DNA of 44,370 nt from positions 1-44,370 of IMG/VR virus record IMGVR_UViG_3300020034_000153. One strand, given 5' to 3'. Of the stretch, positions 15,339-43,145 are shown one piece after another; within the stretch, counting starts at the first letter, position 1, and every line of letters begins with the position of its first letter. Source of the DNA: a virus. Both the position numbers and the translations under genes were made by a program. A model generated the notes under the pieces. That model made no database searches. It saw nothing but the letters and a program-made list of their open reading frames with translations, and was not told the DNA's origin.

Positions 15339-15363
15339 TTTTTAGTTACTTAAAGTTTTATAT

Positions 15364-15405
15364 GGTAGCAGGAGTTTAACTGGTGAATGTTAAACTCCTG
15401 CTACC
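15364..15405 (-). terminator. 17-bp perfect hairpin behind the capsid genes
   Basis: GGTAGCAGGAGTTTAAC (15364-15380) pairs perfectly with its complement at 15389-15405 around an 8-nt loop. On the minus strand it directly follows the decoration-like gene and is trailed by an A/U-rich stretch without a clean U-run. Likely a partial terminator or processing/stability hairpin that sets high capsid output relative to downstream genes. Confidence 0.6.
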
Positions 15406-15414
15406 TATAACTAT

Positions 15415-15735
15415 TTAGCTAATAGCACCCGGATAGTATTTGCCTGTTGCCGGGTTATAAATCATAGCCACTGGAATGTTAACACCAGGATTAGCGGCTA
15501 CCATAATATTTCCAGCAATAGAGAAAACATCCATTGCATCAGGAAATACCAAATAAAGAATATGCTCACCCTCAAGAGGAGGTGTGATATTAACAATCTG
15601 AGTTACCCCAGTAACAATCGTCAGTAAGCTAACCGGAGCGATGGTAGCGGCTGATGCAATTGTAGATGGAGTTGGACCCTTATTACTCTGGAATGGACTG
15701 AATTTATATGCGTTTAACTCAGATGCTCCAGACAT
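15415..15735 (-). CDS. Putative capsid decoration protein
   Basis: 106 residues, beta-rich, with no cysteine (MSGASELNAYKFSPFQSNKG... GEHILYLVFPDAMDVFSIAG ... NPATGKYYPGAIS). It lies directly behind the major capsid gene, three bases away, which is the usual place for decoration or head-fibre proteins. Assignment rests on position and size. Confidence 0.45.
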   Translation of the reverse strand: MSGASELNAYKFSPFQSNKGPTPSTIASAATIAPVSLLTIVTGVTQIVNITPPLEGEHILYLVFPDAMDVFSIAGNIMVAANPGVNIPVAMIYNPATGKYYPGAIS

Positions 15736-26218: not shown

Positions 26219-26232
26219 TAGCGCGCAATACT

Positions 26233-26740
26233 GTGCACTAATGTAACTAACTGTGCAGGGGTGTATAGGGGTGTGCAATGCAATACCATGCATCCATGTG
26301 CAGTTATGTGAACCAATTGCACACTATTATACAGAATTGCATGGCATGATCTTTATTGCACATATTATTTTCTTTATGCTAGTGCAGAGATGTGCATATG
26401 GCATAACAATATTGTCGTGCAATAGTGTGTAATTTTGTGAATACTCAATCGCCATGCCAATGTATAATACTGTGTAATTATGTGCAATTGTGTACAGGTA
26501 CGAATTATGTAATGGCATAATGTTTGAACTGCACACTTTTACTGTGCAGAACTGTAAATTACACAATCGTAATACTGCACACTATTATACACGCTGTAAG
26601 TCCTTTGCTATCAATGACTTACAGGAACGATTACAGAAGTGTAATAATGGTTACGATTCTGTAACGTCATTTTGCAGAACTGTGCATATTTGACTTCACA
26701 ATACTGCACACTTCTATACGTGATTACACGTCACTGCATA
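26233..26740. repeat. GTGCA/TGCAC iteron field in the divergent control region
   Basis: About 500 bp without a credible gene contain at least 16 GTGCA or TGCAC cores, most as ACTGTGCA or TGCACACT. The first cores are exactly 20 bp apart (26233, 26253, 26273), followed by steps of 25, 20, 20, 19, 25, 10 and 25, so they stay roughly on helix phase. A longer form, TGCACACTATTATACA, recurs at 26318 and 26576 and in shorter form at 26705, with an inverted relative at 26262. This looks like a multi-site protein-binding array for replication or regulation. Confidence 0.6.
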
Positions 26741-26786: not shown

Positions 26787-27082
26787 TGACGATGCAAGCG
26801 GCGCGAAAGCCGCACCTGCTTAGCAGGACTCGCTAGGGCTTTACTGTTAGCCCTAACCAAAGTGACTCACAACGGAAACTATTCTGTGTAATAGAGTTGT
26901 GCTTAGCAAACACGGGCCTTATAACCCAAGGCACGGATAGTGTAGAACTATCTCAGGATAATGTGGGTGTCTCTCTCTGTATCAATGGCATACCGGCTTA
27001 GGCACGGGTGTTTGACAGAGAATTAAATGGGTTTGTTTGTAGGCTGTAGTTGCTCCGCAACTCACTTACAGAAAAGGATACA
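26787..27082 (+). ncRNA. Structured leader RNA of the first rightward transcript
   Basis: Eight helices can be drawn in under 300 nt: GCGGC 26798/26809, CCTGC 26815/26823, TAGGGCT 26834/26849 (7 bp), CACAAC 26868/26896 enclosing CTATT 26879/26890, GCCTT 26916/26928, GATAGT 26936/26947, TCTCTGT 26974/27015 (7 bp) and AGTTGC 27048/27057 just before the ribosome site at about 27072. GC content is visibly higher than in flanking DNA. No ORF fits. Candidate cis-regulatory leader or independent RNA. I do not recognise a known family. Confidence 0.5.
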
Positions 27083-27238
27083 ATGCCTAAACCGTCATAC
27101 TTCGCTATTGTCTGGCGCGAAGCTGGTAAACGCCGTAAGATGGTATTCCAGCTACGAGAGACAGCGCAAATCATGTTAGATAGACTAATGCGCGATTGCA
27201 GACATTACGATGCAGTTCTAAAGGAAGTGAAGCAATGA
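27083..27238 (+). CDS. Small basic early protein
   Basis: 51 residues, start ATG with AAAAGGA upstream. Basic and helical (SYFAIVWREAGKRRKMVFQLRETAQIMLDRLMRDCRH). First gene behind promoter P1. Codons use more GC than most of the genome. Unknown family; early position and charge suggest a host-takeover or nucleic-acid-binding protein (inference). Confidence 0.6.
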   Translation: MPKPSYFAIVWREAGKRRKMVFQLRETAQIMLDRLMRDCRHYDAVLKEVKQ

Positions 27239-27429
27239 TTTATCAAACTCATGCCTTCTGGCTGGCATTCCATGAATTCTATATGAACAATCCTGAAATC
27301 GATTTAAGTATAGCTCAAGCCTTCTCTGATTGGCTAGCTAAGCACTCTATAGACCAACTGATACACCTTCGTAACACTCACTATCTGATAGCTAATACAA
27401 TTGAAGATGCTATCATCAATAAACAATAA
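27235..27429 (+). CDS. Small helical early protein
   Basis: 64 residues, ATGA overlap with the previous gene and ribosome site AAGGAAGTGAAG. Aromatic-rich N-terminus (MIYQTHAFWLAFHEFYMNNPEID) and short helices (IAQAFSDWLAKHSIDQLIHLRN). No family recognised. Together with its partner it is bracketed by the 28-position inverted repeat. Confidence 0.6.
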   Translation: MIYQTHAFWLAFHEFYMNNPEIDLSIAQAFSDWLAKHSIDQLIHLRNTHYLIANTIEDAIINKQ

Positions 27430-27488
27430 ACATTTACAGCCTACTAATAAGCCCATTTGATACAATAATGCTACTTCTGGTCTTTATA

Positions 27489-27604
27489 GATTAGCAAGTA
27501 AGTCTAATCCTACTGTCTAACGCGACAGGTAATAAAAGATTAGCATTGCTAATACGGTTGCTGTTGATTCTGTGGTTAACAAACGTCCAAAACAGCGGAC
27601 AGAA
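27489..27604 (+). ncRNA. 3' structured segment with crossing helices
   Basis: Helices: GATTAG 27489/27504, CTGTC 27513/27524, ATTAGC 27539/27548, then two crossing pairs GCTGTT 27560-27565/27591-27596 and TTCTGT 27568-27573/27599-27604, which have the i-k-j-l order of an H-type pseudoknot. It lies between the second small gene and the terminator at 27615 and could be the folded tail of the first transcript. Confidence 0.4.
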
Positions 27605-27614
27605 ACAACGTATC

Positions 27615-27634
27615 AACGGCTACCGTTCGTTTTT
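27615..27634 (+). terminator. Intrinsic terminator of the first rightward unit
   Basis: AACGG-CTA-CCGTT stem-loop (27615-27627) followed by CGTTTTT. Short stem, but clean U-run and ideal position just upstream of the next promoter. Defines a transcript of about 850 nt from P1. Confidence 0.55.
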
Positions 27635-27637
27635 CTC

Positions 27638-27666
27638 TTGACAAGCTACGGCGTTCGTGATATAAT
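27638..27666 (+). promoter_or_regulatory. Strong rightward promoter P2
   Basis: TTGACA (27638-27643), exactly 17 bp, TATAAT (27661-27666): both hexamers are perfect sigma70 consensus. It starts near 27673 and drives gene 27717-28160, whose ribosome site AGGAGACAG follows. Confidence 0.9.
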
Positions 27667-27716
27667 CGTGTTAGGCAAGGCAAAGGGCAATTACGCCCAC
27701 TTTAGGAGACAGACAA

Positions 27717-28160
27717 ATGAGTGAAGACCAGAAGACGGCACTTGAACTTCAACGTGAGGCAGCGGAAACCAAAGCAGAAGAGACAAACAAGTCTCGAACA
27801 GGTTTGGGAACACGAGTTACTGTGACTCAGACTCGTGGTAAGGGAACGCAGGTTATCTCTTATGAATCGTTTGATGAATCGAAGATTGATACGATTCCTC
27901 AGACAGTTCAGGACTTCGTTAACACAACAAAGACTTCAGATGACAAGACTCTTGCAGGATATCTCTGGCGCGGTTTCAATGCACTTGCTTACGAAACTGC
28001 CAGCGACCCAATTGCAGAGTTCGTTAACAAGTCGTGGTCTGATGATGTTCAGCTTCAGTTCAGGACTGCCGTTCGTAACTACTCGCGTGGAGTTCAGTGC
28101 AGCATTGAAGATGCGGTTGCTCTTATCAAGCCGGGATTTGATAAGACTTTCACTAAGTAA
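27717..28160 (+). CDS. Highly expressed early protein of unknown function
   Basis: 147 residues behind a perfect promoter and a strong AGGAG site. Codon use differs from neighbours (many CGT, AAC, TTC, CTT), as in highly expressed genes. N-terminus is charged and probably disordered (MSEDQKTALELQREAAETKAEETNKSR); the body (TIPQTVQDFVNTTKTSDDKTLAGYLWRGFNALAYETASD... FRTAVRNYSRG) is helical with no catalytic signature. Likely the main immediate-early product; could be a host-takeover or DNA-architectural protein (inference). Confidence 0.75.
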   Translation: MSEDQKTALELQREAAETKAEETNKSRTGLGTRVTVTQTRGKGTQVISYESFDESKIDTIPQTVQDFVNTTKTSDDKTLAGYLWRGFNALAYETASDPIAEFVNKSWSDDVQLQFRTAVRNYSRGVQCSIEDAVALIKPGFDKTFTK

Positions 28161-28190
28161 GAGCTTCGCTCCTGAGTAGTTCTCTAGGTT

Positions 28191-28268
28191 TGCTAGTTCC
28201 TATTAAAAACTAGCATCCAGAAGTAGCATTCCCCTTGTATCAGATAGGCTTCAATTCTTTTTAATAGG
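28191..28268 (+). ncRNA. Pseudoknot-type fold after the early gene
   Basis: TGCTAGT (28191-28197) pairs with ACTAGCA (28209-28215), and CCTATTAAAAA (28199-28209) pairs with TTTTTAATAGG (28258-28268, 11 bp perfect). The strands cross, giving an H-type pseudoknot order or two alternative hairpins, since both use base 28209. The second stem encloses the right arm (28217-28251) of the long repeat from 27449. Confidence 0.45.
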
Positions 28269-28270
28269 GC

Positions 28271-28360
28271 AAAACACGTTTTAGCACGTTTCTGAACGTT
28301 GCCTTACGTCTCCGTTCGTTTCTGGACGTTTCTGGACATTTCTGGGCGTTTCGTAACGTT
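28271..28360. repeat. Nine 10-bp phased repeats (array 1, origin candidate)
   Basis: Nine consecutive 10-bp units, most ending in ACGTT, with consensus TCTGRACGTT. A period of one helical turn places every unit on the same DNA face, as in iteron or initiator-binding arrays. The dyad operator copy at 28367-28379 follows directly. No gene overlaps it. Confidence 0.65.
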
Positions 28361-28379: not shown

Positions 28380-28489
28380 GTTTTTCGCCCGTTTTTGTTG
28401 GGGTTTTTTGGCCTTTGTCCACTTTTCAGGCCGGAAACTGACCTAAGTCAGAATCGCCTACCCGCCTTTCCCCGCCGGCTTTCTGATTC

Positions 28490-28550
28490 TTTTTCTTATT
28501 CTATATCTTATTATTTTTTATATATTTTTTTATATATATATAATAATAAG
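28490..28550. other. AT-only tract between two inverted repeat arrays
   Basis: About 60 bp consist almost wholly of A and T (TATATATTTTTTTATATATA style), next to a CCCCCT-GGG-AGGGGG hairpin at 28556-28570. Such tracts act as DNA-unwinding elements at origins. It lies between array 1 and the inverted array 2. Confidence 0.5.
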
Positions 28551-28646
28551 AACGACCCCCTGGGAGGGGGGTATCCAAAATCAAAAATTTAGAAGAGGGG
28601 ACACAACGGCATGAAAAATCGCACGCCCGTAACCCATTGATACCAC

Positions 28647-28675
28647 TTGACATCCCGCCCTCGACGTGCTACAAT
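28647..28675 (+). promoter_or_regulatory. Strong rightward promoter P3
   Basis: TTGACA (28647-28652), 17 bp, TACAAT (28670-28675). The predicted start is near 28682, within the first unit of array 2. Nothing is encoded for the next 595 bases, so the promoter first makes non-coding RNA. Confidence 0.85.
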
Positions 28676-28680
28676 GCCCT

Positions 28681-28720
28681 TACGAAACGTCCTTAAACGT
28701 CCTTAAACCTCCGGAAACTT
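28681..28720. repeat. Four 10-bp phased repeats (array 2, inverted)
   Basis: Four units of consensus CCTTAAACGT with the same 10-bp period. The complement reads GGACGTTTAA, matching the GGACGTTTCT core of array 1, so the two arrays face each other around the AT tract. It covers the start point of promoter P3, so the binding protein could also repress it. Confidence 0.6.
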
Positions 28721-29277
28721 CCGTGCCGCTCACCGCGAACATGTCCACTTTTTGAGAATCCACTTTTAATGACACTTTGTTAATAGCTACTATAGCAAGA
28801 GTAAACAAAAGCCACTTCAAAACTCGACTATGCGAGTATAAATAGCCTTCTAAGCATAGTGCGTTGGCTTTCAGCCAGATAAGGATGGACAATCCTACGA
28901 GCGGATGCCTTAAGCAAGTATCCGCTAGTCACTAGTAGCCTTGTATACGGGGCGAAAGGGCTGATTAACCATCCAAATGCTAACGTATATGGGAATGCCA
29001 TACCTTGAAAGTAGCAGTGGCAAACTTAGGTTAAGGTTAAACTTTACTGTTCATGTCCATTGTGTTAGTTTAAGGCATGACTGTTTAATAGCTAACCGTT
29101 ATCTGGTAGACTTGGAAGTTGTGTAACCAGAGACGATTAAAATTGAACTTCCAGCTAATCTAATAGATTGAATTGAGTGGTTAGTGCTGCTGTAGATAGA
29201 TAATGCTGAAATAAGTGTCTACCTTAGTACAACGGCTAACCACTCTATTGAGTCTATTAGTTACAGTCAGGAGAGAA
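28683..29277 (+). ncRNA. Long ORF-less structured RNA from P3
   Basis: Most of 28808-29259 can be paired: AAAGCCA 28808/28865 enclosing ACTATGC 28827/28854; AGGAT 28882/28892; AGCGGAT 28900/28920 (7 bp); CTTGTATACG 28940/28984 (10 bp with three G-U); TGCCA 28996/29018; TTAAACT 29037/29067 (7 bp); crossing helices TCTGGT 29102/29126 and TTGGAAGTT 29112/29146; then the 29161-29259 hairpin. TTAACC 28965 can also pair out of its loop to GGTTAA 29029. Short ORFs in this stretch have no ribosome site or protein-like composition. Either a 595-nt leader of gene 29278 or a free large RNA. Resembles in size and intricacy the ornate phage RNAs such as GOLLD or ROOL, but I cannot assign it. Confidence 0.55.
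29161..29259 (+). ncRNA. Hairpin RNA element copy 1
   Basis: 29161-29185 pairs with 29235-29259 with two mismatches and two G-U pairs: TAATAGA/TCTATTA outer, TTGAATT/TATTGAG inner purine-rich part, GAGTGGTTAG/CTAACCACTC. The apical part holds GTAGATA 29192/TGTCTAC 29216. It ends 18 bases before the ATG at 29278. Copy 2 at 30875-30978 has the same plan with compensatory changes. Confidence 0.65.
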
Positions 29278-29475
29278 ATGATGTTAGTTATTCAATATCA
29301 TATGCAAGATGCTCACGATACGAAAAATCGATTTGGAGCTACTCTCTGCGGGCGATTCGATTCAATGATAGCGTTTGAGAAGTTCAAACATTATCAAAAA
29401 AGTCTCAGAAAAGTAATCTCTAACATAATCATCTTGAAGAATGAAAGAGATGAGAATGAAAGAACCAAAACCTAG
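29278..29475 (+). CDS. Small protein of unknown function
   Basis: 65 residues. Start at the first of two adjacent ATG codons, behind CAGGAGAG. A longer in-frame start would begin inside the RNA hairpin and has no ribosome site. Sequence MMLVIQYHMQDAHDTKNRFGATLCGRFDSMIAFEKFKHY then a basic helix. It shares the style of small phage zinc or host-interaction proteins but has one Cys only. Controlled by the upstream RNA element if that is regulatory. Confidence 0.6.
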   Translation: MMLVIQYHMQDAHDTKNRFGATLCGRFDSMIAFEKFKHYQKSLRKVISNIIILKNERDENERTKT

Positions 29476-29638
29476 AGAAAAACGAGAATTCAACGCTAAG
29501 AAAGCCGTTGATGCGTTTTACAGAGGTTCACGGAAACGGCTACCGCGATTTAAACGAGTAGATAGCGAAGGAGTAGACATCAGCAGGATAGACATGACAA
29601 AGCATGTATTCATGCATAGGAAAGGTAGAGTTGATTAA
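29456..29638 (+). CDS. Small highly basic protein
   Basis: 60 residues starting at the ATG behind AAAGAGATGAGA, overlapping the previous gene by 20 bases. About one third Lys/Arg (KPREKREFNAKKAVDAFYRGSRKRLPRFKRV), so nucleic-acid binding is likely. No family recognised. Confidence 0.5.
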   Translation: MKEPKPREKREFNAKKAVDAFYRGSRKRLPRFKRVDSEGVDISRIDMTKHVFMHRKGRVD

Positions 29639-29661
29639 ATGACTAAAGAGCTTAACGAATT

Positions 29662-30360
29662 GTGATATCGCCAGAACTGCAACATTGGAATTGTGAGCGT
29701 TGCAATGGCTACAATGATTATTTAGAAGAACATTGTAGCTATTGCCATTTTCACAGCCCAGACTACGTAACATTCAAATCACAAGCTATCGTTCAACTAC
29801 AGAGAGGAGTCTTCTATTATGCTAATATGCACATTCCGAGATTGGAGCAAAGCTCCATGACAGAGCAAGAGGCACTATTTGCAAAGCTATATAATGGCTA
29901 CAAAATTCGAGTCAGCGAAATGACTGACGAAGAATTAGCCGTTCATATAGCTGAAATCTCTGACATAGCCTTTAAGGCTAAGGTCGGTAAGATTGCCGCT
30001 GATGATGAAAAGAAAGAGAGGATTAGTAAGAGAACTCCTAAAGGTAAAGAGTTCTCAATTACAAGTAACGAACCTGATGGTAGAGTAAGTGATTCAATTA
30101 ACGCTGTCAAGGTCAGGCAGAATCGAAAGACTAAACTGGATAAGATGTATGACGGCTTCATAGCCGCTGGCATCCCAGAAGAAACAGCTCAAGAAATGAT
30201 TCGTAATCTAGAAAGGAAAGCTACTGATGCTCAAGTAAATAGTTTTCCTGTCTTGAAGGAGATTAAATCTTCAGTAAATATTACAATTCCACAACCTGTA
30301 ATCGATGATACACCTAGAATTCCTTTCGACCCCAGTAAGTTAGTTCTGTTTGGTAAGTAG
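29662..30360 (+). CDS. RanBP2-type zinc finger protein
   Basis: 232 residues from a GTG start. The first 30 residues contain W-x-C-x2-C-x3-N-x7-C-x2-C (HWNCERCNGYNDYLEEHCSYC), the pattern of RanBP2-type zinc fingers, which in other proteins bind single-stranded RNA or ubiquitin. The rest is helical and charged, with a possible UBA-like helix pair (DKMYDGFIAAGIPEETAQEMIRNL). An 8-codon ORF (29639-29665, MTKELNEL) ends in the start codon; without a TG duplication it would extend this protein, so the true N-terminus may be longer. Finger call is good, RNA binding is inference. Confidence 0.6.
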   Translation: MISPELQHWNCERCNGYNDYLEEHCSYCHFHSPDYVTFKSQAIVQLQRGVFYYANMHIPRLEQSSMTEQEALFAKLYNGYKIRVSEMTDEELAVHIAEISDIAFKAKVGKIAADDEKKERISKRTPKGKEFSITSNEPDGRVSDSINAVKVRQNRKTKLDKMYDGFIAAGIPEETAQEMIRNLERKATDAQVNSFPVLKEIKSSVNITIPQPVIDDTPRIPFDPSKLVLFGK

Positions 30361-30387
30361 TAATTAGCACTCAAATAGGAGATAAAA

Positions 30388-30744
30388 GTGAAGATTAATG
30401 TAGAGAAGTTCCTGACTAAAAAAGGTAATAGGGTTGGTAAAGCAGCTATTGAATTCGAGCATTCAGACGGAGTCCTTGCGGGATTCAGTCTAGTAGGATT
30501 CACTATCTGTGATGATACAGAGAAAGGGTTGTTCATTCTCTTTCCAAGTTCAATCATCAAGAACCGAAACAATCCTGAAGAAAGCAAGCCTTTCTTCTTC
30601 CTTAGACCTAGCACAGATGAATTGCTGGATAAACTTGAGACGGCAATCCTAGATGAATACGATAGAGTTAAGGGTACCTTTAGAAATTCTCCGGCACTTA
30701 CTGAAGTGAAAGATTCGGTAGCTGACGTACTCGGGATCAAGTAA
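30388..30744 (+). CDS. SpoVG-like protein
   Basis: 118 residues, GTG start behind ATAGGAGATAAAA. The layout of strand KAAIEFEHSDGVLAGFSLVGFTICDDTEKGLFILFPSS, a charged loop with NPEESKPFFFLRP and the helix STDELLDKLETAILDEYDRVKG closely follows SpoVG, a small dimeric protein shown in several bacteria to bind DNA and RNA site-specifically. Its stop codon lies inside the three-way-junction RNA that follows. Family assignment by pattern; moderate. Confidence 0.6.
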   Translation: MKINVEKFLTKKGNRVGKAAIEFEHSDGVLAGFSLVGFTICDDTEKGLFILFPSSIIKNRNNPEESKPFFFLRPSTDELLDKLETAILDEYDRVKGTFRNSPALTEVKDSVADVLGIK

Positions 30745-30873
30745 TAGTGTCCAGACTTAGTGAGTTATATCACTTTAGTAGATGCACAGAGTGTGTAATC
30801 GAAGTTGTGATATAACAAGACCGTTGATGTATGCTACATGCATACATCAACAGCTTCTAAGTTGGGCACTATT
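30743..30873 (+). ncRNA. Three-way-junction RNA element
   Basis: The outer stem 30743-30760/30857-30873 has 17 pairs with one G-U and one bulged G. It encloses GTTATATCAC/GTGATATAAC (30764-30773/30807-30816, 10 bp, with an inner hairpin TGCACA/TGTGTA) and GTTGATGTATGC/GCATACATCAAC (30823-30834/30840-30851, 12 bp perfect, loop TACAT), the latter extended by AAG/CTT. Nearly every base is used. No U-run follows, so it is not a plain terminator. Confidence 0.65.
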
Positions 30874-30874
30874 C

Positions 30875-30978
30875 AGTAAGAGATTGAACAAAGCCGTTAG
30901 CTTGCATTGACAATGTTCATTTATGAGAGTGATCAATAGAGCAGACTTCAGGCTAACGGCTTGATTGAGTTTCTTACT
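30875..30978 (+). ncRNA. Hairpin RNA element copy 2
   Basis: 30875-30904 pairs with 30949-30978: AGTAAGA/TCTTACT outer, GATTGAACA/GATTGAGTT inner part, AAGCCGTTAGC/GCTAACGGCTT, 27 of 30 positions paired including three G-U. The apical part holds ATTGA 30906/TCAAT 30933. It begins one base after the three-way junction and ends 34 bases before the ATG at 31013. Homologous in plan to 29161-29259. Confidence 0.65.
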
Positions 30979-31012: not shown

Positions 31013-31516
31013 ATGTGCTTACCAGATTTTATTGAATTTAAACAAGTTGATGAATTGTCACCATTGACAGGATATCGTTCTTGGAGGAGAAGAATCTCAG
31101 ATGGCAGACTAATTATTTCATCTCTAAATCAAACATATGATTGGAAGAAGTTAGAAGGTCCACATAAGGTAGAGCTAATAGATTCAGGAATCTACTCATA
31201 TAATAATTATAATTATAATAATAATAATTATTATTATTATAATAATTATAATAATTATAATAATAATAATTATTATTATTATAATAATTATTATAATAAT
31301 AATTATTATAATCTCTTTGGAATCATCAATCAATGGGGAAAAGTAGCAATTCATAAAGGTGGATATCGCTCAGAGTATGCTAGAGTACATACTTTATTTA
31401 ATATTAGAGAATCTGATGCTAAAGGACCAAAGGAATTCCTAGATTGGATTAAAGAATTTAATGATTTAATTAGATTACTAGCAATTGAATATGAATGTAA
31501 AGTAACATCATGGTAA
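31013..31516 (+). CDS. GIY..WG..H..GYR-EYA family protein with Asn/Tyr-only insert
   Basis: 167 residues, ribosome site AAGGAGAGATAA. Flanks match a widespread bacterial and phage family of unknown function: GYRSWRR..., SGIYSY, then NQWGKVAIHKGGYRSEYARVHTLF. Between them residues 63-100 consist only of Tyr (17) and Asn (21), written only with TAT and AAT codons, so 114 bp are pure A/T. Relatives as I remember them have a short linker there. The insert is prion-like in composition and could drive assembly; function unknown. Confidence 0.65.
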   Translation: MCLPDFIEFKQVDELSPLTGYRSWRRRISDGRLIISSLNQTYDWKKLEGPHKVELIDSGIYSYNNYNYNNNNYYYYNNYNNYNNNNYYYYNNYYNNNYYNLFGIINQWGKVAIHKGGYRSEYARVHTLFNIRESDAKGPKEFLDWIKEFNDLIRLLAIEYECKVTSW

Positions 31517-32967: not shown

Positions 32968-34542
32968 ATGGCATTATCAAGCATCATCAAACAAACCTGT
33001 AAAACTTGCGGTAAAATAGCCGTTGAGAAGTCACGGCTTAGTTTTGGTAGTTCAAAGCTCATTACGTTAGAATGTGGTCATATTCTAACTGAAGATGTTC
33101 TAGCTGCTAATGATTATTCAGCAATTGTAAGCTCAGATAACCGAAGATTGATGCAATATCAGATCGACGGGGTTAAATTCTTAGAACAATCTGATGCAAG
33201 AGCTTTACTTGCTGATGAACAAGGATTAGGTAAAACAGTTCAAGCATTAGCTCTTTTGAGGTTACATCCTGAACAATTACTTCCAGCCGTTATCGTTTGT
33301 CCTACTACCGTTAAACTTCAATGGCACCATGAAATCATTCGTTGGTGTGGTGTTAACGGCTTTCTCTGTCAAGTAATCAATAGCTCTAAAGAGAAGGCGA
33401 TGCCGGGATTTCAAATCTACGTTACAACGTATGACTTGGTTAAAAATGAAGATTGCTTTGAGTATGTTGAAGGACAAGTACAAACAGTAATCATTGACGA
33501 ATGTCAGCGTATTAAGAATCACTTGTCTGACCGTGCTAAAGCAATCCAAAAGCTCTGTAAGAGTGTTACTCATGTAATTCCGATGAGTGGCACACCAATT
33601 AAGAATAATGCTGGAGAATACTTTACAGTATTAAACTTAATCCAGCCTAGACTCTTTCCTCACTACGATAGATTCATTCAGAATGATTGTGATAGTTACA
33701 GCAACGGCTGGGGCTATAAGGTAGGTGGATTAAGAGACCCAAATAGATTTCACGAGAAGACTAAAGATTTCATTCTACGAAGAACTAAGGCTGAGGTTCT
33801 AAAGGATTTACCTGAACTTTCACGAAAGTTCTATCATGTAGAACTCGATAGGAAACTTAATAAAGTATACGCCCTAGCATTAGATGAATTAGAGGAATTG
33901 TACTTCTCTGATGAAGGTTCTGAGTTTGATAAGTCAAGTAATATGTTAGCTATTATGACTAAACTCAGGCAAATCACAGGAATAAGTAAGGTTACTCAAT
34001 GCTTAGAATTCGTTACTGAGTTTCTTGAATCTAACGACAGGAAAATAGTAATCTTCACTCATCATCAGAATGTAATGTTGATGATTGAACAGAGCTTAAA
34101 CAATTATCTAACTGAGCATGGATTACATCCAATTCTCAGTATGAACTCTTCACTTAATGGAGAAAAGAGAGCCGCTCTAGCCGCTAAGTTTAAGGATGAC
34201 CCTAATTGCCGGGTAATGGTAGCGTCAACCCTTGCAGCCGGTGAAGGGCTTAACTTGCAATTCTGCTCTGATGCTGTCATGTTAGAGAGACAGTGGAATC
34301 CTGCTAATGAAGAGCAAGCAGAAGGAAGATTCCATAGATTTGGGCAGACTAATCCAGTAGACGTAACGTATATGATAGCATCTGGAACTATTGATGACCA
34401 CTTCACTACTCTAGTAGAACAGAAGAGAGCTATCATTGCAAGTACATTAGATAATAAAGAATTCAACTGGGACCAGAACTCATTAATGAAAGATTTAGCC
34501 GCTAGTTTGATTGCTGGAGGTAAGAAAGCATGGAAATTGTAA
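32968..34542 (+). CDS. SNF2-family helicase/translocase
   Basis: 524 residues. Zinc-like CKTCGK...LECGH at the N-terminus, then RLMQYQIDGVKFLE, Walker A DEQGLGKT (K89), motif II DECQ (D177-Q180 instead of DEAH), motif III SGTPIKN, and the second RecA lobe with TLAAGEGLNLQ and EGRFHRFGQTNPV (motif VI). It is a double-stranded DNA translocase that may remodel forks or displace proteins; phage members accompany replication and recombination genes. The acid pair of motif II is intact, the last two residues are variant. Confidence 0.88.
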   Translation: MALSSIIKQTCKTCGKIAVEKSRLSFGSSKLITLECGHILTEDVLAANDYSAIVSSDNRRLMQYQIDGVKFLEQSDARALLADEQGLGKTVQALALLRLHPEQLLPAVIVCPTTVKLQWHHEIIRWCGVNGFLCQVINSSKEKAMPGFQIYVTTYDLVKNEDCFEYVEGQVQTVIIDECQRIKNHLSDRAKAIQKLCKSVTHVIPMSGTPIKNNAGEYFTVLNLIQPRLFPHYDRFIQNDCDSYSNGWGYKVGGLRDPNRFHEKTKDFILRRTKAEVLKDLPELSRKFYHVELDRKLNKVYALALDELEELYFSDEGSEFDKSSNMLAIMTKLRQITGISKVTQCLEFVTEFLESNDRKIVIFTHHQNVMLMIEQSLNNYLTEHGLHPILSMNSSLNGEKRAALAAKFKDDPNCRVMVASTLAAGEGLNLQFCSDAVMLERQWNPANEEQAEGRFHRFGQTNPVDVTYMIASGTIDDHFTTLVEQKRAIIASTLDNKEFNWDQNSLMKDLAASLIAGGKKAWKL

Positions 34543-40676: not shown

Positions 40677-43145
40677 ATGAAAAGATTTGTAGAGAATAAA
40701 GGACCATTAGAACCAGATTTAATGGTTGTAGGCCAATTTCCAGGTAATGCTGAAGTTGAAGCGCAATTAAATTTTGTTGGTCCTTCTGGTGAGTTACTTA
40801 ATGATTGTCTAAGATTAGCAGGAATCCGTCGTAGTGAAGTATTCATAGCTAATACTTGCCGCTATCAGCCTCCGATGAATGATATTGATCAATTACATCT
40901 CATTGATGTAAAACTAGAAGATGAAGTAGAGAATCTCTGGAATGAGATTAGAGCACTTAGACCAAAGTGTATTCTGGCTGTTGGTGAAGTTGCATTAAAT
41001 GCAGTCACCGACTATTCAGATATTATGGACTGCCGAGGTAGTATTCTACTAGCTAAGGATGGAGTCACGAAGGTAGTTCCTACAATTCATCCAGCAGCTT
41101 TACTGAGTAGATTTGAGGGTGGAGAGCAGAAGGGTGGATTAGCTTTTACATGGTTAAAGGTAATTCAATCTGACGTAGTTCGAGCCGTTGACGAATCAAA
41201 AAGTAGAAAATTTGATTTACCGTTTAGAGAATTAGAAGTTTGTCATTCAAGTCTTCAAGCTTATCGATTCTTCGAGAAGTATAAGAATTTAGATTTAGCA
41301 GCTAACGATATTGAATCAATTAATTGTATGCCAGTGTGTACTGGATTTGCATTCAATAAGCATCATGCAATGTCATTTCCACTACTACGTAATATTGGTC
41401 CCCATAAACTAACTGATATGGGCAATAAGGAGATGGCTGAAATATGGAGGCTACTTCAAGAGAACTTTAACAGACTTAAATTAATTGGGCATAATATGAA
41501 ATATGATGAATTTAAACAGAATTTGATTGGGTTTCAAAATCTGAACGTATATTCAGACACTCTAATCAAGACAAGAGTTATTTTTCCTGAGCTTCCAATG
41601 AAGAGTCTTCTGGTAGTTAGTTCACTGTGGACTAGAGAACCATATTATAAATCAGAAGGTAAAGAATTCAGGTTAGGCAGGAGTCCAATTGAGAATCTCT
41701 TCAAGTACAATGCTAAAGATTGTGCTGTAGAATTTGAAGTTGATGAAGTTCAAGATGAAGACTTAAAAGAACTCGGTAAGACTTACGGATTAGACTTAAT
41801 GAATTATTATTATAATTATATGATGAAGAAACATAAGTTCTATTTAAATATGGAGAATAATGGTTTCAGAGTTGATGACTCTCGTAAGAAAGAACTAGCC
41901 GTTCGTTACACCGAAATGGCTAGGGTTGTTCATGAGAGAATTGCCGTTGGATTAGGATACGAATTAAATGTTAAATCTTATCCTCAGATGTTTAATCTTC
42001 TATATAAAGAAATGGGATTTAAGATTAGAAAGAAGAATCCCACTTCTGAAGATTCTATTGTTGCATTGTTAGGGAATCATGCCAAGAAAAAAGAACATAA
42101 AGACATTCTTACCGACATCCTCGAAGAGCGTAGAATTAGAGATCAGAAGAGTAGATACATTAACTTCCATCCAGATTATGATGGACGGTGCAAAACGTCT
42201 TTCAATATCTCAGCAACAGAAACTACACGAAGTTCTACAGGAATACTTGACAAGCCAGTGCGCCCAAGAAAGATTGGACTTGCATTCCATACAATTTCAA
42301 AGCATGGTCGCCTCGCTAAAGATATACGGAGCATGTTCATACCAGATGAGGGTACCATCTTTCTCCAAGCGGATAGTTCTCAAGCTGAAGCTAGAGTAGT
42401 AGCCGTTCTTAGTGAAGATTGGGAGCTACTCAAAGCATTTGACGAGATCGACATTCACCGTAGGACGGCTGGATTGATATTTGGTTATTGTAGTAGTCTT
42501 ATTCTTACTACCGGTAGAATTAATTTAGTAGATGATATCCTAAAAGATGGACCTGAACGATTCTGCGGTAAAAAGGTTCGTCATGCAGGTAATTATAATA
42601 TGGGTAAAGGTAGATTTATGCAAGAGTTAAACACTGACGCTCAAAAATTTGAAATTAATATGAATGTATCTGAGTGGAAAGCTGGTAAGATGCTCGAACA
42701 ATTTCACGCAGCATCTCCAAAAATTAGAGGCGTCTTCCATAGAGATATTATTGAAGCATTACAAAGTACAAGAAATTTAATTGATCCTTTTGGAGGATTA
42801 CGAATCTTCAACGGACGTATGGATGATGACTTATATAAGGAAGGATATGCTAATATTCCTCAGAGAACCGTAGCTCATTTAGTTCAGGGAGCTGCTCTTA
42901 AGATTGAAGAGGAATTGAATGGCGATGTTAATATGATGTGGCTCTCAGAGAATCACGATTCATTAACTATGCAAGTTCCCAAAAATAACTGGGAACCGTA
43001 TGCTAAGTTAATGAAAAAATACTTTGAGGTTCCAATTGATTTTAAAACATACTGTACTCTAAAACGTGATTATAAGCTTGTTATTCCATGTGAAGTAGAA
43101 GTAGCAGAGAAGAATTATGGTGATTTCAAGAAGGTGAAGATTTGA
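40677..43145 (+). CDS. polA: Uracil-DNA-glycosylase-like domain fused to DNA polymerase I
   Basis: 822 residues. Residues 1-185 form a UDG-superfamily domain: VVGQFPGNAEVEAQLNFVGPSGELL (family 4/5-like motif A), NTCRYQPP and PTIHPAALLSR (motif B); the usual N-terminal Fe-S cysteine pair is missing. Then a 3'-5' exonuclease with DIES, GHNMKYDEF and YNAKD, and a family A polymerase with motif A DSSQAE (D566), motif B K633-x-R635...NYNMGKG and motif C HDS (D761) where HDE is usual. This is the phage replicase with built-in uracil recognition. Confidence 0.9.
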   Translation: MKRFVENKGPLEPDLMVVGQFPGNAEVEAQLNFVGPSGELLNDCLRLAGIRRSEVFIANTCRYQPPMNDIDQLHLIDVKLEDEVENLWNEIRALRPKCILAVGEVALNAVTDYSDIMDCRGSILLAKDGVTKVVPTIHPAALLSRFEGGEQKGGLAFTWLKVIQSDVVRAVDESKSRKFDLPFRELEVCHSSLQAYRFFEKYKNLDLAANDIESINCMPVCTGFAFNKHHAMSFPLLRNIGPHKLTDMGNKEMAEIWRLLQENFNRLKLIGHNMKYDEFKQNLIGFQNLNVYSDTLIKTRVIFPELPMKSLLVVSSLWTREPYYKSEGKEFRLGRSPIENLFKYNAKDCAVEFEVDEVQDEDLKELGKTYGLDLMNYYYNYMMKKHKFYLNMENNGFRVDDSRKKELAVRYTEMARVVHERIAVGLGYELNVKSYPQMFNLLYKEMGFKIRKKNPTSEDSIVALLGNHAKKKEHKDILTDILEERRIRDQKSRYINFHPDYDGRCKTSFNISATETTRSSTGILDKPVRPRKIGLAFHTISKHGRLAKDIRSMFIPDEGTIFLQADSSQAEARVVAVLSEDWELLKAFDEIDIHRRTAGLIFGYCSSLILTTGRINLVDDILKDGPERFCGKKVRHAGNYNMGKGRFMQELNTDAQKFEINMNVSEWKAGKMLEQFHAASPKIRGVFHRDIIEALQSTRNLIDPFGGLRIFNGRMDDDLYKEGYANIPQRTVAHLVQGAALKIEEELNGDVNMMWLSENHDSLTMQVPKNNWEPYAKLMKKYFEVPIDFKTYCTLKRDYKLVIPCEVEVAEKNYGDFKKVKI

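Follow-up and report, generated by a model that had tools for sequence, protein, structure and literature searches.

Two long hairpins of similar design precede genes in the rightward early operon of an uncultured phage, and the question is whether they belong to one RNA family and what such an RNA would do there. The phage is represented by a 44,370-base IMG/VR record, analysed over its whole length and called the window here, in which the structural genes run leftward and the early operon rightward. By BLAST, the region has no match among 50,697 GenBank phage records. The original prediction described two related hairpins with compensatory base changes, located them correctly (Table 1), and took them for a selected RNA structure outside any named class. 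The latter view agrees with the covarying relatives described below and with Rfam 15, in which no family reaches its gathering score over either hairpin; its matches in the window are a tRNA and a Pistol ribozyme only, neither over the hairpins, and tRNA and Pistol are again the only matches in 24 relatives. An ATG follows both hairpins, as had been stated, the precise gaps being 17 nt (hairpin 1) and 35 nt (hairpin 2), and each start codon has its own Shine-Dalgarno sequence (SD).

Both elements fold with low energy: -45.0 kcal/mol for hairpin 1 (z -5.24) and -41.1 kcal/mol for hairpin 2 (z -5.80), with 0 of 200 shuffles as low in either case. Their alignment yields 31 consensus pairs, 7 of which are changed on both sides, including those quoted in the prediction. 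From the outside in, an 8-bp outer helix is followed by U.G, U-A, a G.G mismatch, A-U, A-U, U-A, a mismatch zone (U.U in hairpin 1, adjacent C.A and A.G in hairpin 2) and 11 inner pairs. In the 26-position helix of hairpin 1, the G.G and U.U mismatches are 4 positions apart. The core is hence not interrupted by an open, purine-rich middle, as had been thought, since UUGAAU pairs with AUUGAG around the single G.G mismatch; it is a near-continuous helix of 25-26 bp, with 1-3 mismatches per 25-26 positions, or about two helical turns of dsRNA. Nor is the apical hairpin a shared part: the loops of 49-50 nt have folds of their own, specific to each copy, and those of the relatives measure 40-114 nt. 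Pairing of the arms with other regions (-17 to -20 kcal/mol) is weaker than with their own partners (-31 kcal/mol), and the local hairpins therefore stand. An intrinsic terminator was considered and rejected, a U run being absent 3' of both hairpins.

Table 1. Features of the window and of related loci (L numbers).
Feature	Location	Strand	Details
Hairpin 1	29160-29260	+	arms 29160-29185 / 29235-29260, 49-nt loop
Hairpin 2	30876-30977	+	arms 30876-30901 / 30952-30977, 50-nt loop
Early operon promoter (inferred)	28647-28675	+	rightward, TTGACA-N17-TACAAT
Pistol self-cleaving ribozyme	28822-28884	+	Rfam RF02679, 49.6 bits, gathering score 34.5
Small hairpin GGAAGTT...AACTTCC	29112-29152	+	directly 5' of hairpin 1; from sequence and relatives
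Branched structure	30741-30874	+	outer stem and two inner stems, immediately 5' of hairpin 2; from folding
65-aa ORF after hairpin 1	29278-29475	+	SD AGGAG
232-aa early gene	29662-30360	+	from tblastn and alignment
Asn/Tyr-repeat protein gene after hairpin 2	31013-31516	+
Window bracketing stem	27022-27461	+	arms ~27022-27053 / 27431-27461, duplex -39.8 kcal/mol
Adjoining window stem around ORF 27717-28160	27458-28241	+	arms ~27458-27480 / 28217-28241, duplex -31.5 kcal/mol
Tandem bracketing stems	L051 206-450, 453-732, 736-1009
Tandem bracketing stems	L063 1029-1294, 1301-1545
Tandem bracketing stems	L060 6-329, 338-733, 725-1001
Second bracketing type	L019:1817-2688, L021:1989-2844, L063:1556-2555, L060:1006-2028, L011:1902-2858

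The leader upstream of hairpin 1 is itself structured. A promoter comparable to that of the window is found at the same location in many relatives, and the Pistol ribozyme lies ~280 nt 5' of hairpin 1 in the same presumed leader. Pistol (41.7-61.7 bits) is repeated across the phage group: besides the window, it is found at L019:3419-3486, L002:2683-2747 and L027:2981-3046 (minus strand), placed within the early leader for the window and L019, and upstream of that leader for L002 and L027. When the whole leader is folded, its minimum-energy structure lacks the small hairpin; the folding energy of the branched structure is low. Inverted arrays of GGACGTTTCT-like repeats flank the early promoter (28318-28356 and 28680-28718), and the relatives have similar CGTCCG/CACGTTCCGA arrays; both look like operator arrays. 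An AT-rich inverted repeat block directly 5' of the promoter (28487-28552) is kept in many relatives. Elsewhere in the window, a noncoding stretch (26230-26740) has dense TGCAC/GTGCA inverted repeats and low folding energy, and the top hairpin on both strands, in a scan of folding energy regressed on G+C content, is that at 15345-15423.

The 232-aa gene is the conserved gene 3' of the hairpin in the relatives. By eye, the N-terminus of its product matches the RanBP2-type zinc finger pattern W-x-C-x2-C-x3-N-x6-C-x2-C; relatives of this product have different N-termini ahead of a conserved MTPQEELFAKFYN domain. The protein encoded after hairpin 2 contains a low-complexity Asn/Tyr tract, the AAT/TAT runs of which form a near-palindrome, and a similar tract is kept in relatives. 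The window also encodes a family A DNA polymerase with a fused uracil-DNA glycosylase domain (40677-43145). As a pointer to the host, the early protein is found in two contigs of one Pacearchaeota MAG only; these are possibly phage contigs binned there and were set aside.

Relatives were sought among 43 related loci collected with the helicase gene (32968-34542) and further ones collected with early genes. As the prediction had proposed, a covariance model was built from the two copies; over 507 kb, it matches two further uncultured phages, at L019:3660-3760 (37.2 bits, E 1.7e-5) and L021:3338-3441 (30.8 bits, E 6e-4). A four-sequence model adds L065 (33.6 bits, E 7.7e-4) and, weakly, L056 (E 0.43). 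Folding of each relative's leader gives L005, L051, L056, L065 and L069, and L011 was added by a motif scan, the control of which, reversed sequence, counts for little. In total, the family has ~13 members. In a profile scan, every member scores higher on the plus than on the minus strand. A pair-profile scan was also run over 1.1 Mb on both strands, leaving out groups of members in turn. Hairpin 1, L021, L069 and L005 are top-ranked when left out, and L011 takes rank 7, which makes its membership weaker. The few competitors are more stems of similar plan. Several of these extra copies lie directly 5' of an SD and ATG (L002, L069, L043), such as L002:2961-3108, immediately 5' of AAGGAG...ATG, with G.G and U.U at matching places. 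Plain DNA patterns reach less far: that of TTGA...TTGAG with stems finds the window's own copy only, and that for the form in L019 and L021 finds those two phages only. The CCTGCATTTGA pattern returned 29 stretches, of which the matches outside the clade were set aside as chance-like in appearance.

The members stand after the early promoter and ahead of the first conserved genes, in many cases immediately 5' of an SD and ATG; in L005, L011, L056 and L069, the stem is shortly 5' of a start codon, similar to the two window hairpins. A well conserved noncoding stretch, GAGTAGGTCCATTGAATGGGCGTAAA..CGCTAAGTTAACTAGTGAATA, lies 3' of the hairpin in two phages (L019:3755-3915, L021:3435-3570); it is absent from the window and has no Rfam match in either of the two. 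L065:582-650 carries a second module of a small hairpin and TGCATTTGATTGAATG, apparently truncated, lacking the 3' arm.

Intragenomic covariation had been regarded as strong evidence of selection; from two copies alone it is weak, and it becomes strong once the relatives are added. In an alignment of ten members, 95% of cells are paired at 22 core pairs, double changes occur at 17 pairs, and covariation amounts to 361 versus 66 +/- 16 in 5000 shuffles (0 as high) and at most 49 when the arms are slid, figures that overstate independence because the alignment is anchored by hand on the motif, the choice of some members was guided by pairing and the sequences share ancestry. Hand anchoring was used because MAFFT misaligned a nine-member set; the model searches are independent of it. 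A tool-made alignment of four members gives the same picture, with 97.9% of cells paired, double-sided changes at 13 of 24 pairs (0 of 500 shuffles) and pairing that falls to ~41% when slid by one column. The search for further homologues, the absence of which was to speak against the structure, has thus returned relatives that covary strongly.

Among the ten members, positions m4 and i2 are invariant, GAG/CUC is kept in 9-10, the U.G at m1 in 8 and the G.G at m3 in 6. From m4 to i3, the sequence of the centre hardly varies; the flanking helices vary freely and keep their pairing. G.U pairs outnumber A.C 19 to 1 in this core and, both being scored alike, 35 to 2 in 16 well-supported stems, the author's selection out of 117 that together, with much noise, total 271 versus 199. 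This excess identifies the transcribed strand as the one that folds. Compared about the helix centre, the two strands are identical at 48.6% of positions versus 26.5 +/- 5.0% expected, in a weak test of a pseudo-dyad, as other offsets reach 42%. The hairpins are members of a real, unnamed family of RNA structures with strong covariation, for which we infer a function below.

Two further aspects were beyond the view of the prediction: such stems are repeated at gene boundaries, and similar ones enclose whole small genes. When longer loops are allowed in the scan, stems of 26-33 bp, usually with a central G.G mismatch, are found around small ORFs, in tandem in three relatives (Table 1) and also in L005, L011 (749-1356), L019 and L021. 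A profile-free search of the same loci gives 58 stems at a score of at least 48, some of them operator-like repeat arrays or low-complexity repeats, whereas three sets of simulated sequence contain 0, 0 and 1; such sequence serves as control for inverted repeats, reversed sequence being useless here. The central G.G is present in 13 cassettes, mostly within GAGTCTAGTAG*ACTG. A 20-base arm pattern searched in IMG/VR leads to new contigs with two cassettes (L142) and one (L146), in which the partner arm follows after loops of 227-288 nt, the G.G is at the same place and the loop holds a small ORF. For the arm matches in L140, L141 and L147, the partner arm was not found; in L145 and for one arm of L143, the DNA ends before any partner could show. 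One L063 cassette, compared by BLAST, has no match among GenBank phages. The bracketed genes all have the same direction, and their set differs between related phages.

In the window, the first bracketing stem encloses two small ORFs (27084-27238 and 27235-27429) and has a U.U mid-stem, with a G-C pair where G.G stands elsewhere. A second bracketing type, lacking the G.G core, surrounds an ORF of ~146-179 aa in five relatives; the adjoining window stem is similar.

Cassettes and local hairpins may be related through the position of the mismatch. With the gene in the loop, the G.G of all 13 cassettes lies 9-12 bp away from the loop, which is the gene-proximal end, and 14-22 away from the opposite end; with the gene outside, the G.G of the local hairpins is ~10 bp from the outer end and 14-15 from the other. 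In both forms, the mismatch is therefore ~10 bp from the gene side. The L051 cassette at 736-1009 has a U.U four positions from the G.G, in the same gene-relative order as hairpin 1 and L002. By formal profile, the sequence similarity of hairpins and cassettes is weak, the permuted register being best for both window hairpins, L002, L060, L065 and L069, and not for L051, L056 and the second L069 stem. A common origin of the local hairpins and the gene-bracketing stems is plausible and falls short of proof.

The reading preferred here, given about one chance in two, is that the hairpins are gene-boundary processing signals of the early transcript, cut by an RNase III-type enzyme that is most likely the host's. 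The helix of 25-26 bp would form with a middle that is conserved in its sequence and in its mismatches (U.U, three pairs, G.G), and the dsRNA-specific endonuclease would bind it and cut near the mismatches, detaching the gene or genes on the 3' side from the RNA on the 5' side. In L005, L056 and L011, the same cut would free a ribosome-binding site carried or touched by the 3' arm, and cutting of the bracketing stems would release single-gene mRNAs in the manner of rRNA processing stems. A processing duplex is the simplest account of helices of at least two turns, with a conserved mismatch, that lie on the transcribed strand at gene boundaries, either between or around genes; from these we infer cutting, the type of enzyme and selection for being cut. 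A host enzyme is assumed because no RNase III (Pfam PF14622) was found in 14 related records. The strong conservation of the core points to something more specific than RNase III, for which sequence usually matters little. Release of translation cannot be the general outcome, since the SD is outside the helix in the window, L019, L021 and L065, and the last three have no ORF start directly 3' of the hairpin. Two further observations count against processing: the local hairpin is missing in many relatives (L024, L057, L063), and a promoter (27638-27666) lies within the loop of the adjoining window stem, which would hence require read-through from upstream. A wider proposal, judged less likely than not, is an oriented RNA punctuation in which a ~26-bp helix with U.U/G.G, ~10 bp from its gene-proximal end, would mark gene boundaries in general, as a local hairpin or a long-range stem, with a dedicated enzyme converting one transcript to single-gene mRNAs.

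The serious rivals are translational control without cutting and antitermination of the HK022 put kind, each of which leaves part of the distribution unexplained. Under translational control, the ribosome-binding site of the following gene would be masked by the 3' arm, and the hairpin would be opened or locked by temperature or by a protein, which may be the product encoded downstream. L056, L005 and L011 would suit this well, with GAGG/GGAGG in the 3' arm or at its edge and an ATG within ~12 nt; the conserved 3' AUUGAG(G) is SD-like, and the base of the hairpin 1 fold reaches the SD weakly. However, the SD of hairpin 2 is more than 20 nt past the helix, L019, L021 and L065 have no ORF directly downstream, and the SD stays in the loop of the gene-bracketing stems, which makes this a rather unlikely general explanation. 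Antitermination would have the small and the long hairpin of the early leader bind RNA polymerase and allow terminator read-through. Two adjacent hairpins in early transcripts, in two copies per phage, do recall putL/putR, and the small hairpin directly precedes the long one in L019, L051, L056 and L069 as in the window; but the long hairpin spans ~90-165 nt with a freely varying loop, its conserved part is mid-helix, and the distance from the promoter to copies on its 3' side reaches ~1.2 kb or more. The gene-bracketing stems and the further copies ahead of other genes do not suit it either, and the probability of this mechanism is judged to be low.

A similarly low probability is attached to a binding site for a phage or host protein that would protect mRNA ends or repress, without cutting. 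A core of conserved sequence and mismatches within a helix, among small early genes of unassigned function, is what such a site might look like, yet no candidate protein was identified, and occurrence at both ends of genes is simpler as processing or end protection. Very improbable is a role at the DNA level, as ends of mobile gene cassettes or as folded single-strand recombination sites resembling integron attC. Tandem small genes between inverted repeats that vary among related phages would be expected of cassettes, but arm sequences diverge between units without loss of complementarity, the bracketed genes are co-directional, and the transcribed strand has far more G.U than A.C. This last point leaves this reading some room, because folded ssDNA tolerates G.T too.

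If processing is the function, a covarying family of gene-boundary helices, together with similar helices around single small genes, would mean the systematic splitting of one transcript into separate mRNAs. Detailed knowledge of phage mRNA processing comes from few model phages; the stems provide exact test sites, and their mismatch pattern, if recognised, would be a handle on processing sites in other uncultured phages.

Among known systems, HK022 putL and putR (~70 nt, two stem-loops near early promoters; PMC9378689) are similar in combining two adjacent stem-loops, in two copies, in early phage transcripts. They differ in that put RNA contacts RNA polymerase, whereas here the long stem-loop alone is ~100 nt, its loop is unconserved and copies are also far from the promoter. 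The RNase III sites of T7 (R0.3, R1, R1.1, R1.3) are, like the elements here, local hairpins between early genes, directly before start codons. T7 R1.1, the known model, has an interrupted stem as well; it is described as a stem with symmetrical box sets, one for each RNase III monomer (PMC8708148), and the geometry here agrees with RNase III. No sequence relation to the T7 sites is seen, and the present stems, as putative cutting sites, have 25-26 bp versus ~9-17 paired positions in the T7 folds; their loops are long and variable, and their mismatch pattern is conserved. The Pistol ribozyme (RF02679) occupies the same presumed leader and also cuts phage-associated RNA, but it is a separate element to which the hairpins have no match. 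Finally, the processing stems of rRNA are cut by RNase III and, like the gene-bracketing stems, are long helices that bracket the RNA to be released; in the phages, by contrast, individual small protein genes are bracketed in tandem, and a conserved core around a central G.G is common to the arms.
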